A stretch of DNA of 40,728 nt. Origin: a virus. The notes beneath the pieces were generated by a model that was given only the letters and a program-made list of their open reading frames with translations, made no database searches and was not told the origin of the DNA. The DNA is taken from positions 1-40,728 of IMG/VR virus record IMGVR_UViG_3300032073_005982; one strand, given 5' to 3'. The translations under genes were made by a program, and so were the position numbers. Below, in pieces: positions 3,082 to 33,623 of the stretch; the first letter of the stretch is position 1; each line of letters begins with the position of its first letter.

Positions 3082-3476
3082 AAACTGTTTGGACTAATGG
3101 TTGTTTTGATGTTCTCCATAGAGGACATATTGAAATGTTAAAATACGCAAAATCTTTAGGGGACAAACTTATTGTTGGACTTGACACAGACGATAAAGTT
3201 AGGCTGGCGAAGGGACCCAATCGACCTTTTAACACTTTGGAAGACAGAGAGTTTTTAGTGGGATCTATAAAGTATGTTGACGAGACAATTTCATTTTCAT
3301 CAAAAAGTGATTTAGAGAGCTTAATAAAATCTGTAAAGCCTGATATCCTTGTTGTGGGATCAGACTGGGAAGGAAAATATGTTGTAGGGTCTCAATACGC
3401 AAAAGAATTAAAGTTCTTTAATCGTATTGGGGAATATTCAACAACAAAAATTTTACAAAATGCTAATTTACGTTGA
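3078..3476 (+). CDS. Cytidylyltransferase-like nucleotidyltransferase (HldE/RfaE C-terminal domain type)
   Basis: The chosen start is the ATG at 3078, which overlaps the kinase stop as ATGA and gives a 132-residue protein starting MKTVWTNGCFDVLH. An earlier in-frame ATG at 3036 would add 14 unlikely residues inside the kinase gene. The HRGH motif (residues 14-17, family HxGH), preceded by TNGCFD, is the nucleotide-binding signature of the cytidylyltransferase superfamily. The later GSDWEGKYVVGS and FFNRIGEYSTT segments match HldE domain 2, which transfers AMP (or GMP in HddC-type pathways) to heptose-1-phosphate. Length fits a stand-alone RfaE2-type enzyme. The 3' end overlaps the phosphatase gene by 17 nt. 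The family is confident; the donor nucleotide is not readable. Confidence 0.85.
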   Translation: MKTVWTNGCFDVLHRGHIEMLKYAKSLGDKLIVGLDTDDKVRLAKGPNRPFNTLEDREFLVGSIKYVDETISFSSKSDLESLIKSVKPDILVVGSDWEGKYVVGSQYAKELKFFNRIGEYSTTKILQNANLR

Positions 3477-14000: not shown

Positions 14001-14494
14001 CAGAAACAGATTTAAAAATATCAAATAAAGACACTATAACACAATCCGATTTTGATCTTGCTGCGCAATATCATCCATCGCTACCGTTTAGTAAAAGTCA
14101 GGCCTTTGGAGCCCGAACCTTGCGCTCTCTCGAAGATCTAATTATTGGTGGTATGTTATCATCTTGGGCTGGACTTAGGGATACTAGAGAAACTACGGCT
14201 TTTTACACAGCAATTGTGCGTGCTGCTTCTCACTTTACTGGATTTAGTCAATTGCCGGCAGCAGAGTATAGCCGCAGTCCAGATTATTCTCTAGAGCGCA
14301 CTGCCGACAGAGCAGCAAGAGGTAACACGGTTACGGGAATTATAGCTTTGATCACACTTAAGACTACTGAACTCGATGAGTTAGAGTTATTTAGGGACTT
14401 GGGAATAAACTCTTGGAACCCAGACCAAAGAAATCGTGTTGAGAGCATAATTACTCAAATGACTGATTTAGAACTACGAGCAAGGGGAGAATAA
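8003..14494 (+). CDS. Giant LysM-containing baseplate/tail protein
   Basis: The 2163-residue protein has an N-terminal module (about 1-190) of unknown fold, then a LysM domain at about 195-250 (YTVKEGDWLSKIAIRYDTT, ending LIEPGQIVTLPY). A lysine-rich patch follows at about 668-690, and hydrophobic helical segments near 840-880 (LLNLIIEFVKQLILQAFKQM). A charged, probably coiled-coil region is near 1740-1800. A Gln/Arg-rich disordered stretch contains 16 consecutive glutamines (1853-1868). The last 290 residues are helical. LysM proteins bridge spike, baseplate and sheath in contractile injection machines (T4 gp53 region, Afp7/PVC7), and this gene sits between spike-like and gp25-like genes. 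A tape-measure function is a less likely alternative. The start has only a weak ribosome binding site. Confidence 0.65.
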   Translation: MKNIVNPVPEIFEAALPEATIVGGIITGWSNIPERDGNGNYPSLRRGPSVEWYEDERNKFIIDMIHTSVLGGYAHLSIGQKVPDSVTGFGLTTDNRFLSLEDALAYAALYPQNAKVGLSATSPPNLKNPRINGRCWALQFVGKKEQQDMLTVITNAIAMMDNNMQNSAFDTVTTEAAQKPINQTKVNDPAGPGTSKSKYTVKEGDWLSKIAIRYDTTVEAILAEDANAQYRENPDLIEPGQIVTLPYNETNARIPEIVPSYSIEKVNQLLEAAGRPTGSIPSGLSVVKKDLSEEKRKVDSEVDLTDWVKNVPPDATTGNEQLGVTNDIPVDIVSYANKNLLSKTYYNTSEKNYWCVFRTLAKNPKSFDVAAGEESVQNIRNFKFDFAVPEILKFASRDKPENRSGIDSSKVEFFSMYGSPSRPQPAPAGQSFWMVAAKIPQDEVERLPTAGAKSKLDDTPTPLQRAKSLLSDKGVQGKEGLRRAPFNVSDLRSTLHTVVQVVNQYADELDKEGITPSMMEHTNVRIAAEDLKSFYNKVKRFTENNQLDILITDKIEFVFDANYKLTNVFYNGKQYAGEADPKTGLYTAFGATQDKTFALVFHANEIAGLLNSDSRPSAIEFVQKYMYPSPVIKPTDIKNKQEENKKSNKYPEEKGGSALGKNTFEVTPEKKKKKSKAKTKEEVEREFQARFNKGKDALGFFTSTLNNAGCETPLAKYLNDAFLIYQLFGGKASIKQIIGVVVKILRDEVIELKKNEQLLLQGAGYLDDPDQFIRDIEREVNRQFFACFRVLGDILSKEVLDPGGVPPDVQALIKSGLTPPRGVKLGKTPSSDLWALWRKQLLNLIIEFVKQLILQAFKQMLLAISGCGPETVVDKSNITRNRVKGVNSPYGIVRINDLVDYAGIDLMEIAEELRIQNTYVEGRELVKRPATLDQIRQLNDDCSDLMVDIDVVAILQGSGGQALIDSLYRGINLGQLNTNELPQADQTNILRGGYSEELTRALLNSVQESVHVGDVRYATLDFTKDLIVRYFKRLGQLLGPGISLGIENPLDTKEAYCDSRDLLAYGLGAGIDIGLEDLSALGDDDSTPVAGGLTKRQLNSQIGQQIDSTSFKIELLCELASKNFDFAFEIQNFWDSIGLAQWLMDLLSAIAAASRQAQGVQARAQAQLMSTASPAPDVNSDINARIEQTELFRFYKHYFGAGDNLYLPPATIKYNVNQVADIPGNHPHYDIGSNVTLQGRNATNPFSEEEQLAINDKSFGRLQLDYIPRQGGDEKVRVYYSTGVRSVVQGDNGGQLDYTKTPSELVCEFDLVDDNTPDTGGKYSVKSALGRISPILLSEGRNVRNATSALVNGIHKNLLHIGYGTVPGQKTSIGGAGSRNVATSIANSTFRGIDYVDSSAVRAIPGPFLNGYYGVTNGLTRNLYANQDPKFKKRVEQIIERASLLPFGPSGDPCNLGKDEQNAIVTLDTINQRIFNFILNVAPLFNNGYGLETPDTMNMLTSYLSNKIIRDFEEKGILGYIVDGLGFVARTCSTTEPDEFGLVFNPALKQDPHEQLDYVIKLMLRKTFFNLSTEVSDDSDFSGWAVMTRNLFDDINTSKPVLNRNGGTAFSKSTAYNMLVNYMHSGYGFGAYGPDRNLPRRNYNLLEYLVERTPGADAFISRLGFSDNFNTFRDREYLGLVPIPLLVGLQYLFYDKVVDLTGKFPSMAFYAKKRVDGADDNLRAILDPASSQNYSIAVVTPAQPKSLRESIEEDIAQEARMQEELNRARRRQQAELDQAGQENQQGAPRDEDVGQNLADRVQGGPPGNQQTPPNQSTRDMQQQQQEEGISQSERERRAAERRERVRREGSQGQQQQQQQQQQQQQQQQRPRVFPADIGGKTYANINDLRRDKARYQSLWEKCNQIRSYKEALETRLGYFASEVARSEQLYKNGGYNFRGKSEYWDDFIRNDDAERAYRGRIHSFVMLVNRNTSLGLSQYGCANPDGHSNGYMDGARLYSSETDLKISNKDTITQSDFDLAAQYHPSLPFSKSQAFGARTLRSLEDLIIGGMLSSWAGLRDTRETTAFYTAIVRAASHFTGFSQLPAAEYSRSPDYSLERTADRAARGNTVTGIIALITLKTTELDELELFRDLGINSWNPDQRNRVESIITQMTDLELRARGE
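13559..13606 (+). repeat. CAA/CAG glutamine-codon tract inside the LysM protein gene
   Basis: Sixteen consecutive glutamine codons mix CAA and CAG without a strict period, so the tract is not a pure trinucleotide microsatellite. It lies in a wider Gln/Arg/Glu-rich segment (about 13260-13610) that begins with charged, coiled-coil-like sequence. It probably encodes a flexible linker between the main body of the protein and its last 290 residues. The tract can change length by slippage without breaking the frame if units of three are gained or lost. Confidence 0.9.
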
Positions 14495-14899
14495 ATGGCG
14501 AATAAGCTAGAAGGTATATCGGTTTCATTACCGTTGGTTTATGATAGCGTTGATGGGCCTTATGAACTTAACAAAACATTAAAGGATGTTGTCAAACAAA
14601 ATCTAAAAAATTTAGTATTGACATCACCTGGTGAAAGAATTATGTTGCCAGAGTTCGGAGCAGGTATCCGGAGATTACTATTTGAGCCAGTTACACCTGC
14701 CACTTCATCCCAGGCTAAAGAAAAAATATCTACACAAATTTCTAAATTTATGCCATTTGTTGAAATAGAACAGATCCTTATTTTGACATCTGATGAAGAC
14801 GCTAGTTTATCACCTAATGCGGTCAGGATAATTCTAAAGTATAATATAGGTCCAATTAATGATAGTGATACCTTGATAATAACTCAGAACCAAGACTAA
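14495..14899 (+). CDS. gp25: Baseplate wedge protein, gp25-like (GPW/gp25 family)
   Basis: The 134-residue protein has the defining gp25-family segment, TSPGERIMLPEFGAGIRRLL (about residues 43-62), followed by FEPVTPAT. The Arg of GERIM and the EFG turn are the conserved core. Length equals T4 gp25 (132 residues). gp25 is a wedge component that starts sheath assembly and binds the gp6-type protein. The upstream stop overlaps nothing but abuts the ATG (TAAATG), giving coupling with the giant LysM gene. The next gene is the gp6/baseplate-J homologue, the same pairing as in T4 and in other contractile systems. The family is very well supported. Confidence 0.93.
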   Translation: MANKLEGISVSLPLVYDSVDGPYELNKTLKDVVKQNLKNLVLTSPGERIMLPEFGAGIRRLLFEPVTPATSSQAKEKISTQISKFMPFVEIEQILILTSDEDASLSPNAVRIILKYNIGPINDSDTLIITQNQD

Positions 14900-14923
14900 T
14901 TATTGAAGCCTAGAGGTTTAATG

Positions 14924-16717
14924 ATGCCAAAACGCCCGATAAATTATACAAGTAGAGAATTTGATTCAATTAAAGAATCGCTTGTAAATTATGCAAAACG
15001 TTATTATGCTAACACATATCAAGATTTTAATGAGGCGTCCTTCGGCGCTTTGATGATGGACATGGTAGCCTATGTTGGCGACCAGCTTTCATTCTATACG
15101 GACTACCAGGCCAATGAAAGCTTTTTAGACACCGCTATTGAATTACCTAATGTGCAGAGATTAGCCAAGCAATTAGGTTACAAGATGCCTGGATCCCCTA
15201 CATCAACCGGTGTTTGTAATTTTTATGTTTTGATTCCGGCTGCATCAACAACGGGCGGGCCTGATACAAATTACATACCAATATTAAAAAGAGGCACTCT
15301 TGTTGGCAGCAACGGGGGTGCTGTATATACTGTTACCCAAGATATTGATTTTACAAATAGCAATAATGAAATAACAGTTGCAAAAGTTGATCCCGATACT
15401 GGTGTCCCGACTGAGTTCGCAATAAAAGGTCAGGGTACCGTGGTCTCAGGGAGACTATTAGAAGAGGAATTAGTGGTAGGCGATTATCAAAGATTCTTAA
15501 GGTTGAGAATGTCTGCTGCGGAAGTTTCTGAAATAGTATCGATAGTTGATTCGCAAGGCAATGAATATTTTCAAGTTGATTATCTGACACAAGATATTGT
15601 CCTATCTAAGGAGCCAAATCGAAGTACCAACCGTGATACTGTTCCATTTATAATGAAAACAAAGCCAAGCCCAAGAAGATTTGTTGTGGAATATGATTCT
15701 AATGGAACCGCATTTTTACAATTTGGGTACGGGTCCTCTGACAATCTTACTGGCGACTTAGTTGCCAATCCCGCTGATGTTGTTTTGGATGTCAATGGAC
15801 GTGAGTATGTTTCTGATACCACATTTGATCCAAGTAATTTAATAGAAACAGATAAGTTTGGAGTTGTTCCAGAAAATACAACCTTGACGGTAACATATCG
15901 TTCAAATGAATCATCAACAGTTAATGCTGCTGCAAGCACAGTAAATCAAATTTTGCAATCATCGCTTACATTTACGAATCGTGATGCTCTTTCTGGACCG
16001 CTCGTCACGGGAGTGGAATCATCTTTGGAGGTTGAAAATCCCGAACCCATTCTTGGAGACACCTCTGAACTAACCGCAGATGAACTCAAGGTTAGGGCAT
16101 ATGCTACTTACGCATCTCAAAATAGAGCCGTTACAAGGTCAGATTATGTCAGTATCTGTTATCGTATGCCAAGTGGGTTTGGAAAAGTTAAGCGTGTTAA
16201 CATTATACAAGACCCAAGGTCAACCAGAAGAAACTTAAATTTGTATGTTTTGGCCGAAGGTTCAAACGGAAAATTTGCAGCACCACCAAGCCAACTAAAG
16301 ACAAACGTAAAAACTTGGATTGATCGTTATCGAATGATAAATGATAGTGTTGACATTTTGGACGGAAAAATTATAAATTATGGCATTCAATTCGAGGTTA
16401 TAGCCGAGACTGGCGCTAATCGTTTTGACGTGCTAAATGCTTGTGTAAATAAGTTACAAGAGAAATTTTTGAATGTGTCTAAAGAGATGGGCGAGCCCGT
16501 ATACTTAGCAGAAATTTTTAAAGCTTTGAATAGTGTTTCTGGGGTTGTCGATACAACTATGGTTAAGTTGGTAAACAAGACTGGTGGATCATATAGTTCA
16601 TATAATTATGAGATTGACAAAAATATGTCTAATGACGGTAGATTTCTTATGATCCCCGCAGATGCAGTTGCAGATATTTTGTTTCCTAATGATGATATAA
16701 CAGGAGTTGTCAGATAA
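14924..16717 (+). CDS. gp6: Baseplate wedge protein, gp6 / baseplate J-like
   Basis: The open frame begins at a TTG at 14903, but GAGG at 14913-14916 fits ATG 14924 (7 nt spacing) or ATG 14921, so 14924 is chosen (597 residues). The N-terminus, INYTSREFDSIKESLVNY then NEASFGALMMDMVAYVGD and NESFLDTAIELPNVQRLAKQ, is the typical baseplate J/gp6 start, which forms the wedge fork around the hub. The C-terminal third (VRAYATYASQNRAVTRSDYV, then FGKVKRVNIIQDPRS and a last alpha/beta domain with AEIFKALNSVSGV) matches the end of the family. It lies directly after gp25 and overlaps the next ATG by one base. Recognition is confident; the T4 name reflects function rather than close identity. Confidence 0.88.
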   Translation: MPKRPINYTSREFDSIKESLVNYAKRYYANTYQDFNEASFGALMMDMVAYVGDQLSFYTDYQANESFLDTAIELPNVQRLAKQLGYKMPGSPTSTGVCNFYVLIPAASTTGGPDTNYIPILKRGTLVGSNGGAVYTVTQDIDFTNSNNEITVAKVDPDTGVPTEFAIKGQGTVVSGRLLEEELVVGDYQRFLRLRMSAAEVSEIVSIVDSQGNEYFQVDYLTQDIVLSKEPNRSTNRDTVPFIMKTKPSPRRFVVEYDSNGTAFLQFGYGSSDNLTGDLVANPADVVLDVNGREYVSDTTFDPSNLIETDKFGVVPENTTLTVTYRSNESSTVNAAASTVNQILQSSLTFTNRDALSGPLVTGVESSLEVENPEPILGDTSELTADELKVRAYATYASQNRAVTRSDYVSICYRMPSGFGKVKRVNIIQDPRSTRRNLNLYVLAEGSNGKFAAPPSQLKTNVKTWIDRYRMINDSVDILDGKIINYGIQFEVIAETGANRFDVLNACVNKLQEKFLNVSKEMGEPVYLAEIFKALNSVSGVVDTTMVKLVNKTGGSYSSYNYEIDKNMSNDGRFLMIPADAVADILFPNDDITGVVR

Positions 16718-18225
16718 TGGCTATTAAAAGATATTTTGCTTCCCAGGATAATACTATTACAAACGCTTTTAAATCCAATCTTAGGACCAGAGGTACTGGT
16801 TCTAATATGGGTGCCTCTGATATTTTAGAGGCTTTTGTGATACATGGGCAGACTTCAGCTTCCATAGACGCATCCAGCGCAGAGCAGTCTAGAATATTAA
16901 TACAGTTTCCAATTGATTCAATTATATCAGATGTGACGGATGGTACAATACCCTCCTCTAGTGTTGAATACAGATTAAAAATGTTCAATGCACCACACGC
17001 TGATACTCTCCCTTACGATTATCCTCTAAAGGTCGCTGTTGTCAGTGGCAATTTTTGGAACGAGGGCCGTGGATTAGATATGAACGAGTACTCCGACTTT
17101 GGTGTGTGTAACTGGGAATCTAGTTCTGAGGGGGTAGCCTGGGAACATGAAGGAGGAGACTTTTATAATAGCGCTAGCGTAGGCGATACATCCTATTCTT
17201 CAAGTTTCTTTTTGTCTGGCGGCATAGAAGACTTAGACGTAGATGTTAGTTTTGCTGTTGATTTATGGAGATCGGATGGAATAGGTACGGCTTCAAATTA
17301 TGGCTTTATGATAAAACACGATGATGACATAATTTCTGGATCTTCTGGTTCATTCTTTACAAAGAAATTCTTTGGACGTACAAGTGAATATTTCTTGAAG
17401 AGGCCTTACATTGAGGCGAGATGGGATGACTCTAGAAAAGATCAAAGAGGTTTGACGTTTATTTCGAGTGCGCTTGCTCCTCCAGCCGACAATCTTAACA
17501 CAGTGTATCTTTATAACCGAATACGAGGCAATCTAAAAGACATACCAAGTCTTATTGGTACAGATCAAATAATATATGTCAGCTTCTTTAGCAGTAGTAA
17601 TGATAATCTACCTTCTGGACACCGATTACATGTTTTGGATGCAGGGGGTCTAGTACAACAAGAAATAACTGGTGGAATTGTTGTAGAGGGCGGCGCTGCT
17701 CAAACTGGTATCTACAGTTGCTCATTTGCCATAACAAGTTCCTTGGATACTGTACATGATGTTTGGCACTCCGGAAGTATAGAGTACTTTACAGGATCTA
17801 TTAATTTAGAAGGTTTATCAGCTAGTTTCACACAATATGAAACACAACATATTAGCGACATTACAAATCTCAAGAAATCATATGTAAAAGGTCAGACACC
17901 AGTTCTTAGAGTGTACGCAAGAGAAAAGAATTGGAACCCCAATGTTTATAGTATGGCCGCTTCTGAGCCGCCATCTCAAATAGTTGAGGATGCGTATTGG
18001 AGATTGTTTAGAGTTGTTGACCACATGGAAATTGTTCCATATGGTACAGGATCTACAAACCACACCAGAATGTCTTATGATGTTAGTGGAAACTATTTTG
18101 AAGTCGATACGAACATATTGGACGAAGGTTATGCCTATGGATTACAGTTTGTTTATTACTTAAACGGAAAGTATGTCGAGCAGCCAGAAATATTTAAATT
18201 TAAGGTTGATGAAGAACCCGTATGA
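16717..18225 (+). CDS. Virion structural protein of unknown fold (baseplate-associated)
   Basis: The 502-residue protein follows gp6 with a one-base overlap (TAATG) and itself overlaps the next ATG by 4 nt. The sequence is rich in Ser, Gly and aromatic beta-strand patterns. It has a recognisable block KKFFGRTSEYFLKRPYIEAR (about residues 215-234) followed by WDDSRKD, and a C-terminal block with PYGTGSTNHTRMSYDVSGNY. I associate these blocks with structural proteins of large marine myoviruses but know no assigned function. There is no signal peptide or enzyme motif. Its position suggests a baseplate periphery or tail-tip component. Confidence 0.7.
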   Translation: MAIKRYFASQDNTITNAFKSNLRTRGTGSNMGASDILEAFVIHGQTSASIDASSAEQSRILIQFPIDSIISDVTDGTIPSSSVEYRLKMFNAPHADTLPYDYPLKVAVVSGNFWNEGRGLDMNEYSDFGVCNWESSSEGVAWEHEGGDFYNSASVGDTSYSSSFFLSGGIEDLDVDVSFAVDLWRSDGIGTASNYGFMIKHDDDIISGSSGSFFTKKFFGRTSEYFLKRPYIEARWDDSRKDQRGLTFISSALAPPADNLNTVYLYNRIRGNLKDIPSLIGTDQIIYVSFFSSSNDNLPSGHRLHVLDAGGLVQQEITGGIVVEGGAAQTGIYSCSFAITSSLDTVHDVWHSGSIEYFTGSINLEGLSASFTQYETQHISDITNLKKSYVKGQTPVLRVYAREKNWNPNVYSMAASEPPSQIVEDAYWRLFRVVDHMEIVPYGTGSTNHTRMSYDVSGNYFEVDTNILDEGYAYGLQFVYYLNGKYVEQPEIFKFKVDEEPV

Positions 18226-21200
18226 GCATAAAAAAGTTATTTCAAAACAACAAGCAGGCAAATTCTGTAGGTAAGTATCTCAAGAGCAGCGCAATAGGTG
18301 CTCTTAGTGGCGGTATGGAATCAGCCCAGCATTTAAGCGAGAGCTTAAAGAGACAAAAGCAATTTACCGCACCTCTAGATTACGGTAATCCTGATGAGTT
18401 TGCAAAATATGGATCAGCAGAAAAATACTACGAAAATTCTTTCAATTATATCTTGCAGAATTATCCCTATGACGGTTCTGCATTTGAAAAAGAAAAGTTT
18501 TATAATGACTTAAATCCTTTAGAAAAGTATATTTTTAATGAGAGATATCCTAAGAGCACTGGATTTGTTAATATTGGAACAAACTATGGCACCGCTGTAT
18601 CTCATAGTAGTCATTACTTCTCGTCTCCAAAGGCAGAATACATTCAGGTAAAAGGCGGGCCTCATTCGGGAACTGTATTTTCTTCCAATTTTAGACAAAA
18701 CAATCTAGAGTTTGGTGGTCCGAGTGGATCAACTGTTGAATTTTTTCTGTCTAAGTCTGCTGTTCCCGGCGGCAGCGCCGTAGTAACAACTCAATCCCCA
18801 AGACAGGTTATATTTGATCTGTGGAATGGTGTGTCTACGGGATCTGTAGATGACGATGAAACAAACGGCTGTTATGGTAACTTAAGAATTGAGCTTTCAA
18901 AAAGTTTAGAAGACAGGTTCTTGGTTACAATGTTGTCGGGCACAAAAGGATATGTAACTCAGTCAATCCCAACAACAGGCGGCGTAGGAAATTATATTAC
19001 CGGAAGCGGTTTCAATCATTTTGCGTTTGTATTTAATACTTCTGAAAGCTCTCCAACTATTGATTTTTATATTAACGGTGTTTGCCACGAGCCAGGCATA
19101 GCCCCGACCGGACACCAAGCAGGACAGATTAGTCTTGTAACTGGTAGCTTAATAGGTAATATTGGTGCTCTTCGTGTTGCTCCATCTGGTGTTTCTGACA
19201 CTAACTCAATGGAGGGGCGTGGAAAATTATCTGGCTCCATAGATGAGTTCAGATTCTGGAAAACGGCCAGAAGCGGAGAGGGTATAGGGAGAAACTGGTT
19301 TACGCACGTCAATGGCGGCACAGATATAGAAGATGCTAATGTTGGACTTGGGGTATACTATAAGTTTAATGAAGGGGTATTCGGAACTAGTAGTGTCGAT
19401 AACGTTGTTCTTGATTATTCTGGAAGACTTTCAAATGGCGCTTGGTCTAACTATGCGGTAGGTGCAAGAGATACAGGCTCTGCTATTACCCAACAGTCCC
19501 TAACTCAATCTATACCATATAGAACAGAGACCGAGGATCCCATAATTATTCCATCTGCATCAGCTTTGACAGTTCGAAGGGATGATCTAAAACAGATTGG
19601 CGAACAACACGATAGAACGAATACATCTTATATTTTAAACACTTTCCCAGATTGGATTGTTGAGCAAGACGCTGAATTTGGTTCCGAGTTAAAAAATTCA
19701 ACCCAAATAATATCAACATATTTTGATACTCTGTATTCTCAGGTTTCTTACCTGACAAAGATTAAGTCAATGGACTATATCAGCGGAAGTGCAACAGGGA
19801 GTATTTTTGAGTTCCCGCACAATGATCGTCTTATGGAAGAACTAGGCGTAGAAGCGCCAGAAATATTTGAAAATGCTAGCATTCTATCTCAGTTTCTGAA
19901 AAGGGACGAAGATATAAATTTTCAACATGACTTGACATCCATAAAAAATACGATATACAAAAACATTTACAACAACTTAAATCACATATTAAAGTCCAAG
20001 GGCAATGAAAAGGCCATAAGAAATTTAGTAAGATGCTTTGGTATTGATGAAGAGATAATAAAAGTCAATGTATATTCGGACAATTCAACTTATAAACTTG
20101 ACAACAACTACCGGGCAGATACTAGCAATAAAAAGTATGCTGACTTTACAGGACTTTTCAAAAGAGATTCATCGGACGCAACGATATATCAGTATCCTAA
20201 TCCAGATCTGCCGGAAGCTTATGGTGTTGTAAGCGGTAGCAGCGGAAGTCTTAGTCTAATAGAATTTGGGTTTACTGCCGAGTGTGAGTTTGTTTTTCCC
20301 AACAAAAAAGAGCAAGACACCTTATCTCACTTTCCTGTACAGGTAGTAACCTCATCTCTATTTGGTTGGCACACACCACGAGGCGAACACAAATTATTGT
20401 CCTCTTCTACGGACACGAGTTGGCACTATCCCAATGCGGATTCTGGGTTACAGGTGGTGGCTGTCAAATCAGCCTCACAGATGGCCGAAGTTATTTCTCC
20501 AGATTACAAAGTTAAAGATGTCTTATTTAAGGTCTTAGATAGGCACAATAATGAAATAATAGTATCACCTGTTTTTAGGAACGTCTATGAAAATCAGAAG
20601 TGGAATATTGCGCTATCAGTTCATCCAAAAAGATTTCCCTTTGCACAAAATTCTGGAGCTAATGCGAATGTTCATGATGGGTATGACATAGATTTTTACG
20701 CCGTTAACTATGACTCGGGAATTAGGCAAGAGAGTTATTACAAAACAGGATCTTTAACTTATAAGTCAGGCTCAGATATTGTTTCCGCTGCGAAAAGATA
20801 TTATGTTGGCGCACACAGAACAAACTTTACTGGAACAGTTCTAACTTCTAGTGATGTTCGTGCCTCAAGTCTTAGGTATTGGACAGATGTTTTGCCAACC
20901 GGCGCAGTAGATATGCACGCTAGAAGTGCTGAAAGCTACGGTACTTTAAACCCAACAAGACAGGCTTATACATTCCAGAGTAAAAACCCTGGTGTCTATG
21001 TTCCTCAAGTTGACACTCTTGCTTTACATTGGGACTTTGCTGATGTAACTGGCAGTGATGCTTCGGGAAGATTTAACGTCAATGACTTTTCGTCCGGATC
21101 CCTAGACTCAGGAAGTGGTGGTGATTTATTCCACGAATCACCGCAGCACATAAATTCCAGACAACACACAGGGCGTGGTGACTTTTTCCCTGCTTCAGAT

Positions 21201-24200
21201 AAACCTATCCGTAAAGAACTTGTATACACAGACAGACTAGAGTTACCAGAATATGCTATTAGTAGCGACATGGTTCAGATAAAAAATATAGACGATCAAG
21301 CCTATGCTCCAATGCTTAGGCCTGAAAAATTATTCTATGCAGTAGAAAAAAGCATGTATCGAAGCATATCAGAAAGAATGCTTCATCTGTTTGCATCGGT
21401 GGAAGAATTGAACAATTTAATTGGCGACCCAGTTAACAGATATAGACAAAACTATAAGTCTATGGAAAAACTGCGCCAGATTTTCTTTTCCAAGGTCGGC
21501 AATATTCCAGACCTGCAAAAATATCTTGATTATTACAAATGGCTGGACTCCTCTCTTGGGCAGATGTTAGAGCAAATGTTCCCAGCCTCGGCTAAGGTAG
21601 CTCCTGGTGTAAGAAATATAATAGAAAGTCATTTATTAGAGAGGTCCAAATTTAACTATACGTTTATGGGTAACCGTAAAAAATCCACCCGACAATCATT
21701 GGCCGGTGGCGATGAGGTTCAGGTCATTGCAAATGCACAAGACCCAGGGGAACTATTAGTAGAGTCAGACGAAGAGCCACCACCTCAAAGGACACCTTAT
21801 GCGGCTAAACCTGTCAAGCCACCTAAAAATGTATCACAAACTAAAAATTTAAAGATTGAATCCGCCCAGGGTGAAAATGTATCGATAGGGTATGCACAGT
21901 CTCACGCACCATTGCCATCTTCACCACCACTAGAAAACGAAAACCGTTGGTGGTGGATGACTCGTGCAGAGAGAGACAATATTACAATAGTTCAATCGGA
22001 CGCTGGAGTGATGAAATCCAGAAATGCAATATTTAAACAAGCCAAGTCTTTTTATGCCCCAAACAGATTAGTAACAATTGGTGCCTTTCTGCCGAAAGAA
22101 AACCAGCCAACAAACCAAGGTATTGGAAATGTAAAAGAAAGTAAAACTGAAGTTGCTGTTGCTAAGGTAAAATTTGGTGGACTTCAGTTAGACCAAGACG
22201 TTAAAGATGTTTTTATTCCAAATTTAAAACAAAACCGTCAACTAAGTGCATCTATAGACGGAGATGATATAAAGGGACAAGTTGTATTGCCGTTTACTCC
22301 GGTGAGTTCTACTGTTCACGAGGGATACCAGAAACAACTGCAAGATGCTGGATTAACAAATGTTGATTTCTCAAACTTGCATGTGCGTCCGGTAGCTGTA
22401 CAATCTCCATTTACACTGGCCCACGTCGGCGGACAACAAGCTAGATCGGCACCTGTGGGTGCAAAGCTTAATCAATCTGATAATGTTCGAAAAGAATCTT
22501 ATCAATTAGAGATTGCGGATGGTGCCGGTGAATTTGACAAACCAGCAGCAAAGACTCCTAAAGGGCAATATAAACGAGGCACGGGAGCATCTAGACCTGT
22601 AAACGTGGCAAATATACAAACGCTCACAACGGACATAGCCCCAGAAGGCGGCGCTAGAGTCTTGGGTAATTTTTCTAAGTTTTATGAGGTATTAAATACC
22701 TCAGACCGTTCTGTAACCAATGTTGACCTTGCCTTTAGTCCTGAGGCTTACCATACGTCTTCTCTGTTGTTGCAAAGCGGAACAATGCCTTCAGCCTTCT
22801 TGACTGATGTGCCAAGAAGAACCCAAGGACTAACTGGTTCGGCAGAATTTACAGCACCAAGACAGAGAGCGGGAGTCAGGACAAACAAGACAATTATAGC
22901 AGATAGGTTCTCGGCACCCGGAAGTAAAGAAGACTCTAAGCAGTTGTTCAGAGATAGAACTTCGGATCAATTCTCACCAAATAATGCTTTACCATTTAGA
23001 AATATAAAAGTTAGGCAGCGTTATAATACGCTCCTAAAACGACATACCGGGTTTGGAGGTTTCCAAACATCATCTTTGACAACATTGTTGGATAGAAATG
23101 ACTCTACAGATTTGGGTGCATTTAACGAGGGGATCGTTATACTTCCTGCGGTACATGGTGATCCACTATCTATACATACAGCGTCTTTGGTAGCAGTTCA
23201 CAAGACTCAAAGAAATACAATCCTAAGAGCAGAACTTGCATCATACAATTTAAATTCTCCCCTGGTTCCTATCATGACAACTGGTTCCGTGAGAGATAAT
23301 GCATTTGTAACAAGACCAATACCTGCGGGTGACCGTTATTCTTGGTTTATGGCCCTGTCACACTCACAGGGTACACCGGGTGATCATCCAGGACAAAACG
23401 TCGGCGATAATTTCCATTTCTTTATCTTGTCAGCTTCAAGATATCCTGGCGATATAACTTTATACACTTCCTCCATTGCTCATGCTGAAAAGTATAAACT
23501 ATATCCAGGCACTTTTGCTGCTCAAGCAAATGGTGTATTTAGTAATTCTGCTGGCGGTCTTAGTTATATTTGGGAAAGAAACGGTGCAGGACTTTGGGCA
23601 CCTTGGACACAAACTCGATATGGACAATTCACTACCAAGGGTATGTTTAATTCTAAACAAAACTTTTACATCATCGATGCAGCAAACATAACAAGAAAAG
23701 CAGAGAGCGTTGAACAAGTAGCCGGCAAAAAACTAATGGTTATGGAGAAGGGAGAGACTGTAAAAGATTTTACAAAATCAATCGTAGAAGATAATGATAA
23801 CTCTCTACAAGTATATCTAGGCAGCGTTGGTAATACCGTTACTCATCGTATCGCCAAAAGATATAAAGAGCCGCCATTGACCTCAAGATACAAGCCGATC
23901 TTACATCAGATAAAAACAAAAAGAGGCACGCCGGCACTAACAGATAAGAAATCTGTCGATGTGACTGTTAAGTATTCTTATGGTAACGAACTGCAAGGGT
24001 TTGCCAATAGAGGACTTAATATTGATCTTGGCAATAAACAAGACTTTAAGTTGGGGCAGCTAAAAAGACCTTATGAAATTATCAGGGACACATTTGTAGA
24101 CGGTGTGGATCCTTCTATTGATGGGGTTGAGCTTATCAAGATGATGAGTTACAAAGAGACAATATACCCTAGAGAAATCTATGCATACCTATCGGCTACC

Positions 24201-27200
24201 AGAGCAAGAAATTTTTACAGAAACAATTTCTGGAGATCTGATATAGCAACTGGATCTGTAGCAGTTCTTACAGCAAGAAGTATTACAGAACTTTCAGGGC
24301 TTTTACACGATCACAACATAAAAGAATTTAATAATTCTTGGGAAAGAAGAATTACTGATGAGGCAGCGGGCGCTGGATTTTCTTCATCGTTTGATTACTA
24401 TGTTAAAATGGATGAACAGTTCCCAATACCAATATTCCAAGGTAATACTTCAGGTAATCAAGGTTATATCCCACCAGTAAAGACAACACCATATGTTGAT
24501 GCAGAGGGTAACAGAAACCCTGGGTCTGGATCTATGTGGCCTTTAGATTCTTTTTACTATGCAGAATTTTCGGGTGCTTTGCCCACATCATCATATAGCG
24601 GAACAAATATAGGAAATAATCTTCTGTTCTGTATGGCTTCAACAATGCCGGCTGGTGAATTAATGATGCCGCATTACGGAATTGTTATGAGCGGCAATGC
24701 AGCTAATAGCAGTTCGGAACTTGGTGGCATTCGATTTAACACCTCTAGTGTTAACTCACCGCAATATATTTACTCAGTTCCAACTGAAAAAATCCGTACA
24801 ACAGATCTTGCCAATGGGAAGGCAATATTTATTGCTGAACCTAATGCTGTTGCTGGACCAGTAGCAAGGCCAGCTTGGACCGCAGGACGAAAAAGAAAGT
24901 TTGTTGACGGTCCAAAGAAAAATTCTCTTGCACCCGCTAGATTTCCGTGGTATAATAACTATGAAAACTGGCAAAAAGAACTAAGAAACTTAGGTAAAGA
25001 TTACACAATTATTCCTGAATATCGCATCAGTGAGCTTATGCCTACCTATAAAGAATTAGGAAGCTTTGGGACTGTATTGTCTGGTGCTCTAAGTGTCACA
25101 GGAGCGACAAACAACACTGGAACTAACTCCCCGTTTAATAGTGCAGACAGAGAGTTTTTGCCACGATATGCCACAAGTGATGCTGCCGAGTATTTAAAGA
25201 CATTTATGAAAAAAGGCTCAAAGGATGCGGAGTTTAACAAGGATCCAAGACACCTTGAGATTAAATCAGAGGCACTCCTGAAGCTATTGCCCTATGAGGG
25301 ATTCTACCCCGTCCTAAGAACCTTAGAGTTGGCCAGACTATTTTCTCAGTCTTATGGTCCTGCAATTGAATATTCTGGTGAGGGATACACGCCCGGAGCA
25401 CCCAACTTTAAAGATATAACATCTACAACACCCGGCGAAAACGATGATAAAAATCCAAGATCTTTTAGAACGATATCTCGCCCATTCTTTGCTCCAGGTA
25501 TTGTATATAATTCTATTAAAGCTGGTGTCGCTGTACAATATCCTATACTTCGAAAAGGTATGAGTGCTTTTACTTCTGCATCTATACAAGACCCTCTAGC
25601 TGGGCAGCTTAGCTCGTCCGTTTTCTTCTCATTAGCTACAGGGGACCTGCAAATGTCAGGCGCTTCTGAAACCGCTATTACTTTGCCCGGCGGTCGTCGC
25701 CGAAGAAAAGAAGGAACTGCTGAGAATTTTGACTTCTTTAAATTGGATGTTGCGGTCGAGGGAGATCAATTAAAAGATGGTAGTCGAGGTGCGCCGCACC
25801 GCATGTTCTACTCAGATGTCATACCATTTGAGGGAATATTTAAACCGATGGAGCACATTTCATCGGAAAAGAGAGGCGTGGTTTTAGCCGATTCAAATCC
25901 AGTTTTGTATCAGGAAATAACAGGCTCGGTTCCTACAACGGGCGCTCTTGTGACAAGTCAGTTCGAGGGCGAAGCAGGAATGGAGGAAAGAGTCCATTTC
26001 GTTAAGTTTGATGATGATTTGTATCGTCTCGGGATGTCAAACTTTATGGCAAATGTTCCAAGATTCTTTTTGAAAAAACAAAACGACGGCGGGTTTATGT
26101 CTAAATTTGTCGCAGAGATACCATCCAGAGCTACAGCAGATAATCCTGCCGGCGCTGCGGCTGCAAATCAAAATGAAGCCAGGACTGTTGCAGTATCCAA
26201 AGATAAGGCTTATATTATGGAAATTGGTATGAAACAAACCGATAGACATATGATGTATAGTAACCCGGCAGCTTTTGGACCTCCAACTGCAACGGGTTCA
26301 TTTGATTGGAATGAGATGCTAGCTGCTGGGCCTGGCGCTACTACGCCAGCAACTGTAACCTATGGCGCTCAAGCAACAGCTTCTTTAGAAATTAATACTT
26401 TTGATGAAAATATTCTTGATGGTAAGTTTATAGGCATTACGGGATCAACAAACGATGGCACGACAACCGCAGTTACTTTTGAGTTTGACAAAAACGTTGC
26501 TCCTGGCTCGCCGGCTAAGACAGATGCCACAAACTATACAATAGGTTGTCAGAGCGTTAGTGATGCTCCTGCTGTCGGAACAGCAATACTCAATGCCTTC
26601 AACCTTGCTAGCACCAATGGGGACTTTAAAACAGTCTCAAGTGTTAACGGATCAACGGGTACAGTAACCGTTAAACAGTTACTGAGAACTGCCAAATTTA
26701 ATGGATTAGAAATTGTTGGATCTTCTGTTAATCCGGACCAGGCTGGTGCTGGTGTTACTGTAGAGGGTCCGTTTGCTGGAGGACAGCTAGCTCCTTTATT
26801 CACCGTTGCTACCACGCAACAGAGTGGTGGAGTTCCTCAAGGAAAAGACTGGCCTCACCATAGAGCCGAGTTTGCACCTTATACACCAAGTTATTACTAC
26901 GGACCAAGCGTTGTAAGAATAACTTATGTGCCTAAGAAATCAGGAGAAGTCACGCTCAGAGAGATACTCAGCGGCGAAGAATTATTTGTTGAATACAATA
27001 ATGAAAATGGATATTATTATGATTTTGACTCTGGATCATACGTTGGAGCTAACGACCAAGTATTTAGCCTAGATGGAGTTCCGGCCTATGGGTTTAACCG
27101 AGCTTGGCAAAATAGACAAGATTTAGATTCGTCTGTTGTCATCGATAATGTATACCCAACAGACGCAGCGGATGTTTCACCACGGGATCAAAATAAGTGG

Positions 27201-29021
27201 GTAATTATGCCCAAATGGGAATGTCCAGTATTAGATTTCCCGACAACAGATGGTGGTTATAACTATAGCGCCTCAGTTAACGTCGGGGAGCATGATCCTA
27301 AGGTTAGGGGAATGTGGCACCAGTACGGCACGATGCCATCTTCTTCTGTTGAGGGTGTGTTTATGTATATTTCAGATGTTTCGGTTGAGTCAACTGAATT
27401 AAGACTCTTAGGAAACCCAACTGGTTCTGCTGCACAAAGAAGCGGTGAATCAACAGGAACTGTTCTTTCGGGCACAGCAAAAGTAGAGGTGGTTAGAAAA
27501 GTTCCAAAATTTGTGATAGATTCCGGTCGAGAGGTTGACTCTTTGGCAAGATTGGTAGGGTTCAAAGAAGACAGTATTCAGGCACCGGGAACTTTCCAGC
27601 CAGAAAAGGCCAAGCGCCTTGGACAATTGGCTGAGAGTGGTGAAAAAACAATTTCTGAAGCTGTGTTAGCAATGCCATATTACTTAGAGCCAACCACTCA
27701 AGAGATGAAAGTAATGACCTTGAAGGGTAACATGGATGCTTTGGGTCCAAAAGTTAAAGAGTTTAGAAAAAACTTTACAAAATATTCCTTGCCTCCGTCG
27801 CTCAAGAAACAGTTAACGTCCTTATTGCCGCCAAACTATCCAAAGGTTTCCAAGTTCATCAATCCCTTTGGGGGAGATGATTATGATTCGATCATACCAA
27901 CTGAAGAAGATGTGAGTATACCAATTGTATATTTACTAGAGCATACAGTGGGACTTTCCAGGCAAGACTTGGCAGATATTTGGCAAGGTATAATGCCAGA
28001 TATAGCAGCTACAATGAAAACTAGTGTATCATCTATTGATCATTATATGCCAGGAGATAGAGCTTCTGGTACAGGCAATAAAACAGTCTTCCCAGAAATT
28101 TTACTTAAAGAGCTTGAGCTTGGAATTCCAAGAAACGGACACCCAAGAGTTGATTTGATAGACGTTGCACCACTTGGTTCTCGTGATGGTTTTATTCCAG
28201 AAATAAAATGGATGATATTCAAGGTCAAGGAACGAGGCGTAGATCGATTCTCGACCTTCATATCCGAGGAACTAAACGGCGGCCCCGGATCATTTTCGTA
28301 TGATAATGTCTTTGGTGTTATAGCAGAAAATTTACCACAAGAACAAAAAGATTTCTTGAAAAGAAAGAAGACAGAATATACTAAAGGTCTCTTCGTAAGT
28401 GATGACCTTGGTGTCGCTGGCAATACCTATAACTGGCCTTATGATTATTGTTCGCTTGTTGAAATGGGTAAGCTATCTGTTAACGTTGGATTTAGACCGG
28501 AACTTGAAAGAGAGACAGAAGACATTTCAGAAGATCAAGAGACAAACGCCAGAAGTCGAGGCGAGAGAAACAAGAAAGTCTTAGATAATAAAAACCTAGA
28601 ACAAAGAAGGCTTTCTTCTCCTCCAAGAATATTACCGGCAACACCTCTAACTCCGCCAGCCGGTGCGACTATAATGTCACCTCCACCAGGAGCAGAGGCT
28701 TTACCCCAAATGCCAAACACACCATTGCCTGGGGATATGACACCGCCACCTGAAGGTATGACGCCTCCACCACTTGGTCAACCACAAGAAATAGATCCTT
28801 TTGCTGGAGAAGCACCAGCATCCCCAGAACAGTTTGACCCCGGCAAAATTCCTGCTGGTGAAATCCCAGAACAGTTCAGAGATATGACACCGGCCCAGAT
28901 GGAACGCCGTCGAGCAGAAGAGATGTCTAAAGCACAAGAACAACGCCAGCCTCCACCTAGTTTTAGACCACCAAGAGGCGGTGGTAACGGTGGCGGCGGA
29001 TCAGGCGGCGGAGGCTACTAA
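18222..29021 (+). CDS. Giant virion protein with LamG-like domain
   Basis: The 3599-residue protein begins with a helical region, then a concanavalin-like LamG domain at about residues 130-420 (DFYINGVCHE, LSGSIDEFRFWKTAR, LGVYYKFNEG, LDYSG). Residues about 560-640 include IRNLVRCFGIDEEIIKVNVY. Residues about 1045-1140 form a helical block with LNNLIGDPVNRYRQNYKSME and YLDYYKWLDSSLGQMLEQM. An immunoglobulin-like or beta module at about 2720-2856 looks inserted. The last 135 residues are Pro-rich, ending in a Gly run. LamG domains bind glycans, so receptor contact is plausible. Its place after gp6 is where T4 has gp7-gp10, but no clear homology to those is visible. The frame is open without interruption for 10.8 kb, and the gene ends overlapping the next start (TAATG). 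Confidence 0.75.
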   Translation: MSIKKLFQNNKQANSVGKYLKSSAIGALSGGMESAQHLSESLKRQKQFTAPLDYGNPDEFAKYGSAEKYYENSFNYILQNYPYDGSAFEKEKFYNDLNPLEKYIFNERYPKSTGFVNIGTNYGTAVSHSSHYFSSPKAEYIQVKGGPHSGTVFSSNFRQNNLEFGGPSGSTVEFFLSKSAVPGGSAVVTTQSPRQVIFDLWNGVSTGSVDDDETNGCYGNLRIELSKSLEDRFLVTMLSGTKGYVTQSIPTTGGVGNYITGSGFNHFAFVFNTSESSPTIDFYINGVCHEPGIAPTGHQAGQISLVTGSLIGNIGALRVAPSGVSDTNSMEGRGKLSGSIDEFRFWKTARSGEGIGRNWFTHVNGGTDIEDANVGLGVYYKFNEGVFGTSSVDNVVLDYSGRLSNGAWSNYAVGARDTGSAITQQSLTQSIPYRTETEDPIIIPSASALTVRRDDLKQIGEQHDRTNTSYILNTFPDWIVEQDAEFGSELKNSTQIISTYFDTLYSQVSYLTKIKSMDYISGSATGSIFEFPHNDRLMEELGVEAPEIFENASILSQFLKRDEDINFQHDLTSIKNTIYKNIYNNLNHILKSKGNEKAIRNLVRCFGIDEEIIKVNVYSDNSTYKLDNNYRADTSNKKYADFTGLFKRDSSDATIYQYPNPDLPEAYGVVSGSSGSLSLIEFGFTAECEFVFPNKKEQDTLSHFPVQVVTSSLFGWHTPRGEHKLLSSSTDTSWHYPNADSGLQVVAVKSASQMAEVISPDYKVKDVLFKVLDRHNNEIIVSPVFRNVYENQKWNIALSVHPKRFPFAQNSGANANVHDGYDIDFYAVNYDSGIRQESYYKTGSLTYKSGSDIVSAAKRYYVGAHRTNFTGTVLTSSDVRASSLRYWTDVLPTGAVDMHARSAESYGTLNPTRQAYTFQSKNPGVYVPQVDTLALHWDFADVTGSDASGRFNVNDFSSGSLDSGSGGDLFHESPQHINSRQHTGRGDFFPASDKPIRKELVYTDRLELPEYAISSDMVQIKNIDDQAYAPMLRPEKLFYAVEKSMYRSISERMLHLFASVEELNNLIGDPVNRYRQNYKSMEKLRQIFFSKVGNIPDLQKYLDYYKWLDSSLGQMLEQMFPASAKVAPGVRNIIESHLLERSKFNYTFMGNRKKSTRQSLAGGDEVQVIANAQDPGELLVESDEEPPPQRTPYAAKPVKPPKNVSQTKNLKIESAQGENVSIGYAQSHAPLPSSPPLENENRWWWMTRAERDNITIVQSDAGVMKSRNAIFKQAKSFYAPNRLVTIGAFLPKENQPTNQGIGNVKESKTEVAVAKVKFGGLQLDQDVKDVFIPNLKQNRQLSASIDGDDIKGQVVLPFTPVSSTVHEGYQKQLQDAGLTNVDFSNLHVRPVAVQSPFTLAHVGGQQARSAPVGAKLNQSDNVRKESYQLEIADGAGEFDKPAAKTPKGQYKRGTGASRPVNVANIQTLTTDIAPEGGARVLGNFSKFYEVLNTSDRSVTNVDLAFSPEAYHTSSLLLQSGTMPSAFLTDVPRRTQGLTGSAEFTAPRQRAGVRTNKTIIADRFSAPGSKEDSKQLFRDRTSDQFSPNNALPFRNIKVRQRYNTLLKRHTGFGGFQTSSLTTLLDRNDSTDLGAFNEGIVILPAVHGDPLSIHTASLVAVHKTQRNTILRAELASYNLNSPLVPIMTTGSVRDNAFVTRPIPAGDRYSWFMALSHSQGTPGDHPGQNVGDNFHFFILSASRYPGDITLYTSSIAHAEKYKLYPGTFAAQANGVFSNSAGGLSYIWERNGAGLWAPWTQTRYGQFTTKGMFNSKQNFYIIDAANITRKAESVEQVAGKKLMVMEKGETVKDFTKSIVEDNDNSLQVYLGSVGNTVTHRIAKRYKEPPLTSRYKPILHQIKTKRGTPALTDKKSVDVTVKYSYGNELQGFANRGLNIDLGNKQDFKLGQLKRPYEIIRDTFVDGVDPSIDGVELIKMMSYKETIYPREIYAYLSATRARNFYRNNFWRSDIATGSVAVLTARSITELSGLLHDHNIKEFNNSWERRITDEAAGAGFSSSFDYYVKMDEQFPIPIFQGNTSGNQGYIPPVKTTPYVDAEGNRNPGSGSMWPLDSFYYAEFSGALPTSSYSGTNIGNNLLFCMASTMPAGELMMPHYGIVMSGNAANSSSELGGIRFNTSSVNSPQYIYSVPTEKIRTTDLANGKAIFIAEPNAVAGPVARPAWTAGRKRKFVDGPKKNSLAPARFPWYNNYENWQKELRNLGKDYTIIPEYRISELMPTYKELGSFGTVLSGALSVTGATNNTGTNSPFNSADREFLPRYATSDAAEYLKTFMKKGSKDAEFNKDPRHLEIKSEALLKLLPYEGFYPVLRTLELARLFSQSYGPAIEYSGEGYTPGAPNFKDITSTTPGENDDKNPRSFRTISRPFFAPGIVYNSIKAGVAVQYPILRKGMSAFTSASIQDPLAGQLSSSVFFSLATGDLQMSGASETAITLPGGRRRRKEGTAENFDFFKLDVAVEGDQLKDGSRGAPHRMFYSDVIPFEGIFKPMEHISSEKRGVVLADSNPVLYQEITGSVPTTGALVTSQFEGEAGMEERVHFVKFDDDLYRLGMSNFMANVPRFFLKKQNDGGFMSKFVAEIPSRATADNPAGAAAANQNEARTVAVSKDKAYIMEIGMKQTDRHMMYSNPAAFGPPTATGSFDWNEMLAAGPGATTPATVTYGAQATASLEINTFDENILDGKFIGITGSTNDGTTTAVTFEFDKNVAPGSPAKTDATNYTIGCQSVSDAPAVGTAILNAFNLASTNGDFKTVSSVNGSTGTVTVKQLLRTAKFNGLEIVGSSVNPDQAGAGVTVEGPFAGGQLAPLFTVATTQQSGGVPQGKDWPHHRAEFAPYTPSYYYGPSVVRITYVPKKSGEVTLREILSGEELFVEYNNENGYYYDFDSGSYVGANDQVFSLDGVPAYGFNRAWQNRQDLDSSVVIDNVYPTDAADVSPRDQNKWVIMPKWECPVLDFPTTDGGYNYSASVNVGEHDPKVRGMWHQYGTMPSSSVEGVFMYISDVSVESTELRLLGNPTGSAAQRSGESTGTVLSGTAKVEVVRKVPKFVIDSGREVDSLARLVGFKEDSIQAPGTFQPEKAKRLGQLAESGEKTISEAVLAMPYYLEPTTQEMKVMTLKGNMDALGPKVKEFRKNFTKYSLPPSLKKQLTSLLPPNYPKVSKFINPFGGDDYDSIIPTEEDVSIPIVYLLEHTVGLSRQDLADIWQGIMPDIAATMKTSVSSIDHYMPGDRASGTGNKTVFPEILLKELELGIPRNGHPRVDLIDVAPLGSRDGFIPEIKWMIFKVKERGVDRFSTFISEELNGGPGSFSYDNVFGVIAENLPQEQKDFLKRKKTEYTKGLFVSDDLGVAGNTYNWPYDYCSLVEMGKLSVNVGFRPELERETEDISEDQETNARSRGERNKKVLDNKNLEQRRLSSPPRILPATPLTPPAGATIMSPPPGAEALPQMPNTPLPGDMTPPPEGMTPPPLGQPQEIDPFAGEAPASPEQFDPGKIPAGEIPEQFRDMTPAQMERRRAEEMSKAQEQRQPPPSFRPPRGGGNGGGGSGGGGY

Positions 29022-30031: not shown

Positions 30032-33000
30032 ATGGTAAAAAATATTTCACAAAACCAGAACACTTTTTTCCCAAGCTTGGTACAAGGTCTTCAATCACAA
30101 TCTGGATTAGTTTATTTATCTTCAAATTATCCCAGTGTTTCAGTGGATGAGGCGATAGTAGCTAATGATATAAAAACAGTTGGCGAAGCTGCTGGCGAAG
30201 AAACTATAACTGTGACTGTGAACTCAACTATATCAGAGGCTATATTGGAAACGTTGGCTGATAACAAAGAGTTCAAAAGATTTTATAATACACCTAGTTA
30301 CATTAGTAATCTTAGAGTAAGAATTATAGCTTGCTTCGGAAAGCAGGGCATTGATTTAGATTTTATAACCCAAAGAACAAATGAATACCAAGCGGGGTTA
30401 ATGGCATTGTCTGGCGAGGAGAACGCTGATAATTTTTACGTTAACTTAATTAATAGTATAGGGCCATCAAATTACTCCCTACTTGCGCCAGCAGGTCCAT
30501 TTGGTTCCGATGCCATTCTCAATACTTTAAAAACGAATCTTCAAGATAAGTTATATTACGATGCTACCTCTGCAAATAACGGAATTATTTTGTGTGATAT
30601 GCCTATGGACGATGCTCTTTTAAGAGATAAAGACGGCAACGTAACCAGAAGAGAAAGAAGAAAACCAGCACAAAAAAATAACGCAGCCCTAGATTCTGAC
30701 GAATATGCAAGTTATGTTTTAGATAGCATTATGCTAAAGCCGTTTGTTTTCAGGATGGGTAAAAACGAAACATACACTAGTACCGACATGTCGAGTATCA
30801 GATTCTATGCATTTACCTATATGGATAATCAAGCTTTTCTTGAAGATAAGGGCATTTCTAAGGATTACGTCCAAGGCGAGGAAGATCGCCTTTTAGAAAC
30901 TGGAATGGGCTTTGTTAAAAGATCAGTTTTTAGAGGCACCGAATATATTTTTGTCCCTCAGGAAAAAACCTTGGTGGTTAGAAGTGACCAAATTCAGTCT
31001 GAGACCGCATCACCATCCATGGCGGCAAAATTATCAGATGAGAGAGGTTACGATAGATTAAGTATTGTTGATTTTAAAAGTCAAATAAATGTGACAACAA
31101 GCGATCTCTTGAAGTCATTAGATACAAATAATAAAATATATGAAGATATTAAATCAGAAAACTTTTTTTCTGAGTTCTGGGTCACAAGGTGTGAGAATGA
31201 TAGTGCTAGGTTTGGTTTTGTCTTTGACAAACTAGCCTTCCTGGCAAAACATAGTGAGTTTTCATTCTTGTATGCAAACCCTGCTACAGCCGCCGATCTA
31301 CTTAGTGGCGATGGTAGCTTAGCGGCAGAGGATGAAGACACTGTTAGGTGTTTAGATATAACAATGTCTAAACGGCAAATTAGAACTGAGCCTACGATAG
31401 GTGTCAACAAGTTGACCTTTGGCAGACACAAAAAATATGATGAATCGTATTACAGGCCTGAAGAAATAGTTCAGGAGCCAATTCTTATCCCGGCTATAGG
31501 AGAGTTCTTAGACCCAGCAATTTCTAAAAGAATGAGTTTTTACGAGGGTTATGATACTTACGAAGATGAGTTTAAAACTTTGACTGCTGGTATGTACCAG
31601 TATGCTGCTACTGTAAATGTATATGATCCATCTCTTTCGTACCTTAGGCGGTATGCTCGTGCTTTGTCGGCGATTTCCTTAAGAGCTATTGAGGCATATG
31701 ATTTGATTGTTAACTCACCTCCAACCGACCTAGAGAGAAAATTAGGGGTAGTCATTGATGGTGCTGGTTTATATAACGGATCAAAGAATGAAAGAATCGT
31801 TCCCCTTGGATCAATACAGTTTAATTCACAGACAATGCTAGAAAGCATAACGTCAGACATTAGAAGTTATGTAGATCTTTTTACGAAGATGACGCCGACC
31901 ACACCGCTAAGTTCAGATGCAATAATCAACATGTTGTTATCAATGGTTAAGAAAAAAGACCCTTACGGAATAAAAGAATTCTATAACATTGTTGAGAACT
32001 TCAAAAGGGGCATAGAACAAATACTAGAAACTAAAATGCCGAAAGATCCTAATTTAGAATCAACGACGGCAGTTCAAAAACTAGGGGCCAATACAACCCC
32101 AACAAAAATTAACATTCTAACTTTCAAACATTATTTTGATGATTTGTTTGAATTTGGGACAAAGTATGGAACAGGATACTTATACCTGTCCCAAGAAGTG
32201 GCTGGCAATATACCTAATCCTGGTGGATTGCCGACATTTTCAAGGGACTTCTATAACAGCAGAAGATCCGAAGAATTCAATAAATATTTTGGTTCTTATA
32301 ACCAGCCAGGGTCACCTGCCTCGTTTGCAAGCCCTGATGGAACATCATACGAACAATCAAGTTATCAATATTTCACGCCTAAAGCAATTAAAAATTTTGG
32401 AAAACAAACAATTGTCCAAACCTCATATCGATCGCAAGATGAAAACATTCTGGCTTATGACATAGACAAATACGCTGATTTGTTCACAGACCTGGTAAAC
32501 AATAGGATATACTCTCACAATAATAGCTTGCCATTTTTCTCAGCACAAGACTTTGATGTTACGCCAAGAGATCTTTTTAACAGCGCTAACAACTCTTTAT
32601 ATGCTCATGGGTGTTTGATTAGCGAGGGGATTGAGCAACAATTTAGTATTCCAAGCGTCGGAGAAAATATTAGCAAAGTCATAAAAATAGGAAAAGATGG
32701 CAGTGAAAATCCTGAAGTAGACGCACCACGAATTGTGGGAACATTTCTTGGAGGAAATGAGGATACAGATTTAGATGCTAAAGATTTTTTCAAAACAACG
32801 GAACAAGAGTTGACTCCATTTGCCACAGGTACATACGGGGCCATAGTTGATCCATCTTCTATCGATAGTGACGAATTGCCTATTTCTCCGGCTGGTCTTC
32901 CTCCGACCAAATTAACCTTTGCTATTCTTGGAGAGTTAGAACTCGATTCAAAAATAGACAGCACAACATACCTCAAAGAGACATTTAACTCTATGGTCAA

Positions 33001-33622: not shown

Positions 33623-33623
33623 C

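Follow-up and report, generated by a model that had tools for sequence, protein, structure and literature searches.

A 3599-residue phage protein that probably joins a baseplate wedge protein to a new peripheral baseplate unit

The window that we analyzed, a 40.7-kb virus record (40,728 nucleotides), encodes a 3599-residue protein, here called the giant, in which a wedge protein and a new peripheral baseplate unit are probably fused. We regard it as a familiar component, a contractile-tail wedge protein, that has taken on an extraordinary form. The giant consists of at least two parts, A (residues 1-1148) and B (residues ~1150-3455). The first-pass annotation had suggested a fused wedge and peripheral protein. 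That idea survives in that a structural-type giant lies in a baseplate operon, a wedge-type part is joined to another part and the parts are separately encoded in relatives; a joining of T4 gp7-gp10 is not supported.

The giant is encoded by a single ORF (18222-29021, plus strand) that starts with ATG and continues for 3599 stop-free codons, as first annotated. The start overlaps the end of the preceding gene by 4 bases, the last base is the start of the following gene, and the intact chain amounts to ~390 kDa. In 12 close loci, orthologues hold the frame and the gene order at 34-86% identity. When the window was compared with the near relative L003, dN was 0.096 and silent sites were saturated; therefore, the frame encodes a real protein, and the gene is under strong purifying selection. 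The whole protein has no meaningful match in Pfam, PHROG, NCBIfam or PDB, and sequence searches of PDB with the whole giant and with several profiles returned nothing meaningful.

The giant follows a gp25-like gene (14495-14899, plus strand; PHROG baseplate wedge, E 8e-20), a gp6/J-like gene for 604 aa (14903-16717, plus strand; Pfam Baseplate_J, and PHROG baseplate wedge at E 5e-24) and a gene for a 502-aa CBM96/Disaggregatase-like protein with weak Pfam matches (16717-18225, plus strand). It had been placed directly after the wedge genes. The baseplate operon is indeed its setting, but the 502-aa gene sits between gp6 and the giant. The closest relatives of the gp6-like protein come from Flavobacterium phage immuto, Microcystis phage Mel-JY01 and LR756508. 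In these genomes, gp6 is followed by a relative of the 502-aa gene (369/386/420 aa; hhalign probability 97-99%), and behind it the next large gene specifies a protein of 1265-1400 aa. The order gp25, gp6, 502-aa gene, giant in the window thus parallels gp25, gp6, 369/386/420-aa gene, 1265-1400-aa gene in all three, and the CBM96/Disaggregatase-like protein is kept right behind gp6 in the giant's lineage.

Just upstream of gp25, the gene at positions 8003-14494 encodes 2163 aa, of which aa 199-246 form a LysM domain. The product is another giant of the same operon, relatives have long orthologues of it, and it might act as a hub or tape measure or be a gp53-type fusion. Positions 30032-37001 code for a pair of large proteins, of 1196 and 1125 aa, that match no family and whose counterparts in relatives vary in size from about 868 to 1450 aa; they are candidates for fibre or receptor-binding proteins. 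Near the tail operon, positions 385-3476 hold two nucleotide-sugar epimerase-like genes and one HldE-like gene, which suggest sugar-nucleotide synthesis.

A profile of residues 1-1148 matches the proteins in the equivalent position of the three related genomes (immuto gp161, QQO92079.1; Mel-JY01 WWT39511.1; the 1400-aa ORF of LR756508.1) twice and in order, at aa ~437-624 and 1015-1116 (E 4e-16 to 5e-3). The matches define a helical wedge-type module (aa 440-640; 19539-20141, plus strand) and a module that we call C1 at the end of part A (aa 1000-1148; 21219-21665, plus strand). Because the matches are conserved in order and the operon layout is shared, with each protein lying behind gp25, gp6 and a CBM96-like gene, the giant occupies the slot of the immuto-type protein. 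The immuto-type proteins carry a different N-terminus in place of the first LamG-like domain described below. Segments X2-X5 of the giant had no match anywhere in the immuto, Mel-JY01 and LR756508 genomes, in which positive controls were detected. On sequence comparison, then, the giant appears as an immuto-type protein with another N-terminus and a large C-terminal addition.

Across 49 segment-target profile pairs, only the pairing of the helical module with P2 gpI stood out. Against a gpI profile of ten sequences, hhalign gave P values of 6e-4 to 1e-3 with the KGT motif in register and a score of 30.6, whereas 100 column-shuffled gpI profiles averaged 12.1 and did not exceed 17.5; the hhalign probability was only 18-29% and the resemblance spans ~40 residues. 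The module, which is common to immuto, Mel-JY01 and LR756508, carries a KG(T/N) helix-turn-helix-strand motif at aa ~571-619. AlphaFold2 predicts (DSSP assignment) a helix at 571-591, a helix at 596-605 and a strand at 613-619, in agreement with the gpI motif. Pfam Tail_P2_I (PF09684) has no match in the window protein itself; at the motif, with positions compared by hand, it reaches 12.7 bits, under the cut-off of 20.6, in the giant of relative L010 and the LR756508 protein. C1 had no match to the gpI profile in profile comparison.

The operon resembles that of P2 as well, where W (gp25), J (gp6) and I follow one another; in the window the one 502-aa gene intervenes after gp6. P2 gpI has ~176 aa, whereas the giant carries LamG domains and another ~2400 residues besides, and the likeness is short and sub-threshold. 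By analogy, we take part A to work like gpI/gp7, yet because the curated Tail_P2_I cut-off is missed we do not file it as a gpI member. In XM1, gp17 forms (gp16)2-gp17 wedges, is called the T4 gp7 orthologue and carries the tail spikes via a loop and its C-terminus (PMC10457771). From its size and gene order, our own reading is that XM1 gp17 is a gpI-type protein. The gpI-type domain of XM1 is homologous to gp6 domain I; the corresponding likeness between gp6 domain I and the helical module of the giant was not significant. The spike-bearing XM1 wedge is the arrangement that we propose for the giant.

A remote-homology comparison with T4 gp7, gp8 and gp10 had been proposed as a check on the giant; no profile comparison showed such homology, and it is P2 gpI that the wedge-type motif resembles. 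Segments of the giant were compared with T4 gp7, gp8, gp9, gp10, gp11 and gp53, using reversed-profile controls, and nothing was found. Among these targets gp7 alone was a multi-sequence profile (seven sequences), and no segment rose clearly above its reversed-profile background. The Pfam gp8 and gp9/10 families (PF09215/PF07880) are absent from the window, from the contigs of seven relatives (155-190 kb) and from immuto and Mel-JY01, with a positive T4 control. These two results give no support to a fusion of T4 gp7-gp10. T4 gp7, a 1032-aa wedge initiator, is like the giant in being large, in following gp6 in a T4-related phage and in its wedge role, which for the giant is predicted; its profile similarity to the giant is undetectable.

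Part A is predicted to hold two LamG/concanavalin-like domains, not one. The first-pass annotation had seen a LamG-like domain near the N-terminus, and both sequence and structure prediction agree with it: Pfam Laminin_G_3 reaches 20.6 bits (E 5e-4), under its curated cut-off of 27.6, at aa ~140-430 (18639-19511, plus strand), and the AlphaFold2 model resembles LamG, pentraxin and lectin folds. This model of residues 1-1148, built from 75 sequences, has a mean pLDDT of 79 and a modest pTM of 0.54, so that the arrangement of domains within it is unreliable. A Foldseek search of PDB with the model matched its predicted jelly-roll to pentraxins, LamG domains and legume lectins (E 3e-5 to 1e-3), including a Bacteroides putative carbohydrate-binding protein (BACOVA_03559, 4dqa). 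Because two-LamG chains of neurexin and laminin align over about 770 query columns, and AlphaFold2 predicts strands at aa ~640-960 (20139-21101, plus strand), we place a second LamG-like domain there. The region from 640 to 2700 had been described as free of recognised domains; this domain lies in it, together with a helical module that is conserved and a portion of a large new fold. The giant shares the predicted jelly-roll and a GSIDEFRFWK motif with LamG/pentraxin-type domains (Laminin_G_3; BACOVA_03559, 4dqa) and differs from them in its weak sequence score and its setting in a phage baseplate-operon protein.

From the modeled fold, it is plausible that the LamG segments bind the cell surface. 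It is also possible, although we lean somewhat away from it, that they bind neighbouring virion proteins and take no part in cell contact. A jelly-roll fold alone is no proof of sugar binding, and the domains are conserved across the lineage beyond what would be expected of a host-specific receptor site. The nearest structures, however, include lectins and a putative carbohydrate-binding protein, a similarity of fold only. We found no relevant paper on giant phage proteins or on LamG domains in baseplates in the open literature.

Part B begins with a poorly conserved Pro-rich linker (aa ~1150-1240; 21669-21941, plus strand), recognised from the sequence and the orthologue alignment, and then the X1 region (aa ~1240-1970; 21939-24131, plus strand), which is conserved in orthologues and lies apart from part A in split forms. 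A large single fold is predicted to follow, at aa ~1980-3440 (24159-28541, plus strand, excluding an insert described below). AlphaFold2 modeled the orthologous stretch of relative L012 (aa 1950-3140 without the insert, 1191 residues) with a mean pLDDT of 86 and a pTM of 0.91, which suggests a single unit. When this model was compared with 350,542 PDB chains, the best Foldseek match had an E value of only 1.4. Among predicted viral structures, seven matches were strong (E 2e-59 to 2e-20), the next was at E 0.55, and the sole named one of the seven belongs to an uncultured marine virus. As modeled, aa ~1970-3440 would be a fold without solved relatives at the Foldseek sensitivity used. The secondary structure of part B had raised the suspicion of a capsid-type fold, which we rejected on the Foldseek null and the presence of a T4-type gp23 elsewhere in the same genomes. 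The protein ends in a fast-evolving Pro/Gly-rich tail (aa 3456-3599; 28587-29018, plus strand).

The insert at aa ~2702-2860 (26325-26801, plus strand) is missing from that position in the alignment of more distant relatives. A profile of this domain (~140 aa) finds it elsewhere in other clades: within X2 and within X4, in the stretch that separates X1 from X2 and, in one weak case, inside X1. Three sites of the domain could be placed on the L012 model, and all are loops (193, 624 and 776). The roaming domain is confined to giants, as no other ORF of the loci matches it (L158, L127, L041 and others), and it has no match in Pfam or PHROG. We tentatively propose that aa ~1970-3440 is an unseen fold of ~1200-1450 residues that may make up the peripheral baseplate in a major lineage of aquatic phages, where it would do the job of T4 gp8-gp11 without kinship to them and serving as a chassis for one mobile ~140-residue domain at clade-specific loops.

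Would these features fit a receptor-binding or fibre protein that merely comes after the wedge genes, with the LamG domains and part B as a host-contact arm and the wedge-like motif incidental? LamG-like folds are typical of adhesins, and a roaming domain and a fast-evolving tail suit a surface-exposed protein. We nevertheless consider this unlikely. No tail-fibre or spike family in Pfam, PHROG or NCBIfam gave a meaningful match to the whole giant. Distant phages keep the helical and C1 modules in the slot while the N-terminus is replaced. Most of part B evolves slowly (dN/dS 0.02-0.10 where measurable), unlike a typical receptor-binding tip, and the next two large proteins, with their variable sizes, suit a fibre role better.

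The wedge fusion that we prefer is supported by relatives that encode the parts of the giant separately. Of 74 representatives, 46 encode the giant in a single complete ORF and 22 in two ORFs; in the other 6, contig ends truncate it. Because the giant is encoded as two genes in 22 of the 68 informative representatives, and is cut at several places, we conclude that it is a fusion of separable pieces. The first ORF ends at 1165-1267 aa in twelve split forms, which makes the Pro-rich linker the commonest split point, and at 1613-1691, 1786-1819, 1963-1975, 2422 or 2975 aa in the remaining ones. In the split relative L056, for example, part B is a separate ORF of 2189 aa (L056:13681-20250). A 75-row tree, quickly built and with some weak branches, requires at least 10 fused/split changes. 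Nine split forms make up one supported clade with short spacers and are therefore unlikely to be assembly errors; single split cases might be. The short form in immuto-type phages suggests, by analogy, that part A predates the joining of part B.

Separate genes with several split points, and a main boundary at a Pro-rich linker, would also be seen if the giant were a polyprotein-like fusion of unrelated virion proteins that is cleaved after translation, with part B acting elsewhere, such as in the neck or head. We think this quite improbable. No cleavage site was identified, split points scattered also within X1 and X2 suit pieces that stay together better than one processing scheme, and every relative examined keeps parts A and B side by side in the baseplate operon.

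The profile of the first 1148 residues finds at least 411 stretches of viral contigs, and that of the remainder finds 249. In INPHARED, tblastn gave a sole match of 101 residues, in the 484-kb uncultured phage LR756508, and no cultured carrier of the giant was found. Genome bins with one relative each are assigned to WOR-3, Maricaulis, Poseidoniales and Flavobacteriales; these were too inconsistent to use for naming a host. One relative (L175, CP070664.1 582492-597920) lies inside a 2.8-Mb record titled as a WOR-3 MAG chromosome and is either an integrated phage or a misassembly.

Seven large relatives were checked, and T4-type gp23, portal and sheath genes occur elsewhere in them. The sheath of L045, L010, L127, L168, L101, L073 and L173 is unusually long, with Phage_sheath_1C in frames of 988-1140 aa; the frames in immuto and Mel-JY01 are 711-817 aa. 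In a tree built with the gp23 of the seven relatives, these carriers group with RM378, immuto and Mel-JY01 (support 99/98), apart from T4 and P-SSM4; RM378 and T4 are long branches. Because of the long branches, we only tentatively place the carriers, by gp23 sequence, near the Far-T4 phages (PMC4360716), of which a marine genome has been linked to Bacteroidetes (PMC7198788). Neither part A nor X2-X5 had a match in RM378.

In the arrangement that we propose, part A would replace the P2 gpI/T4 gp7 wedge protein, its helical module, possibly with C1, joining the gp6 dimer in each of six wedges. The two LamG-like domains would point outward and may bind host glycans or adjacent fibres. Part B, tethered by the Pro-rich linker, would form the peripheral baseplate where T4 has gp8-gp11, and the covalent link between A and B would set one giant copy per wedge. 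Contact at the LamG domains, the roaming domain or attached fibres could then pass via the wedge to the sheath.

Relative to the open literature that we found, the features that are new are the fusion itself, a second LamG-like domain, a fold that lacks matches and the roaming domain. The natural breakpoints of the split forms make the giant tractable piece by piece, the core can be studied in the laboratory in immuto, an isolate that has the short form, and a large, confidently predicted unit for which no structural match was found is well worth solving. The carriers, which belong to a widespread uncultured T4-related group, occur frequently in viral contigs. If our reading is true, these phages would have rebuilt the contractile-tail baseplate on one fused protein, with an old wedge core and a large periphery of unmatched fold, and they may touch and open cells with a previously unseen component.
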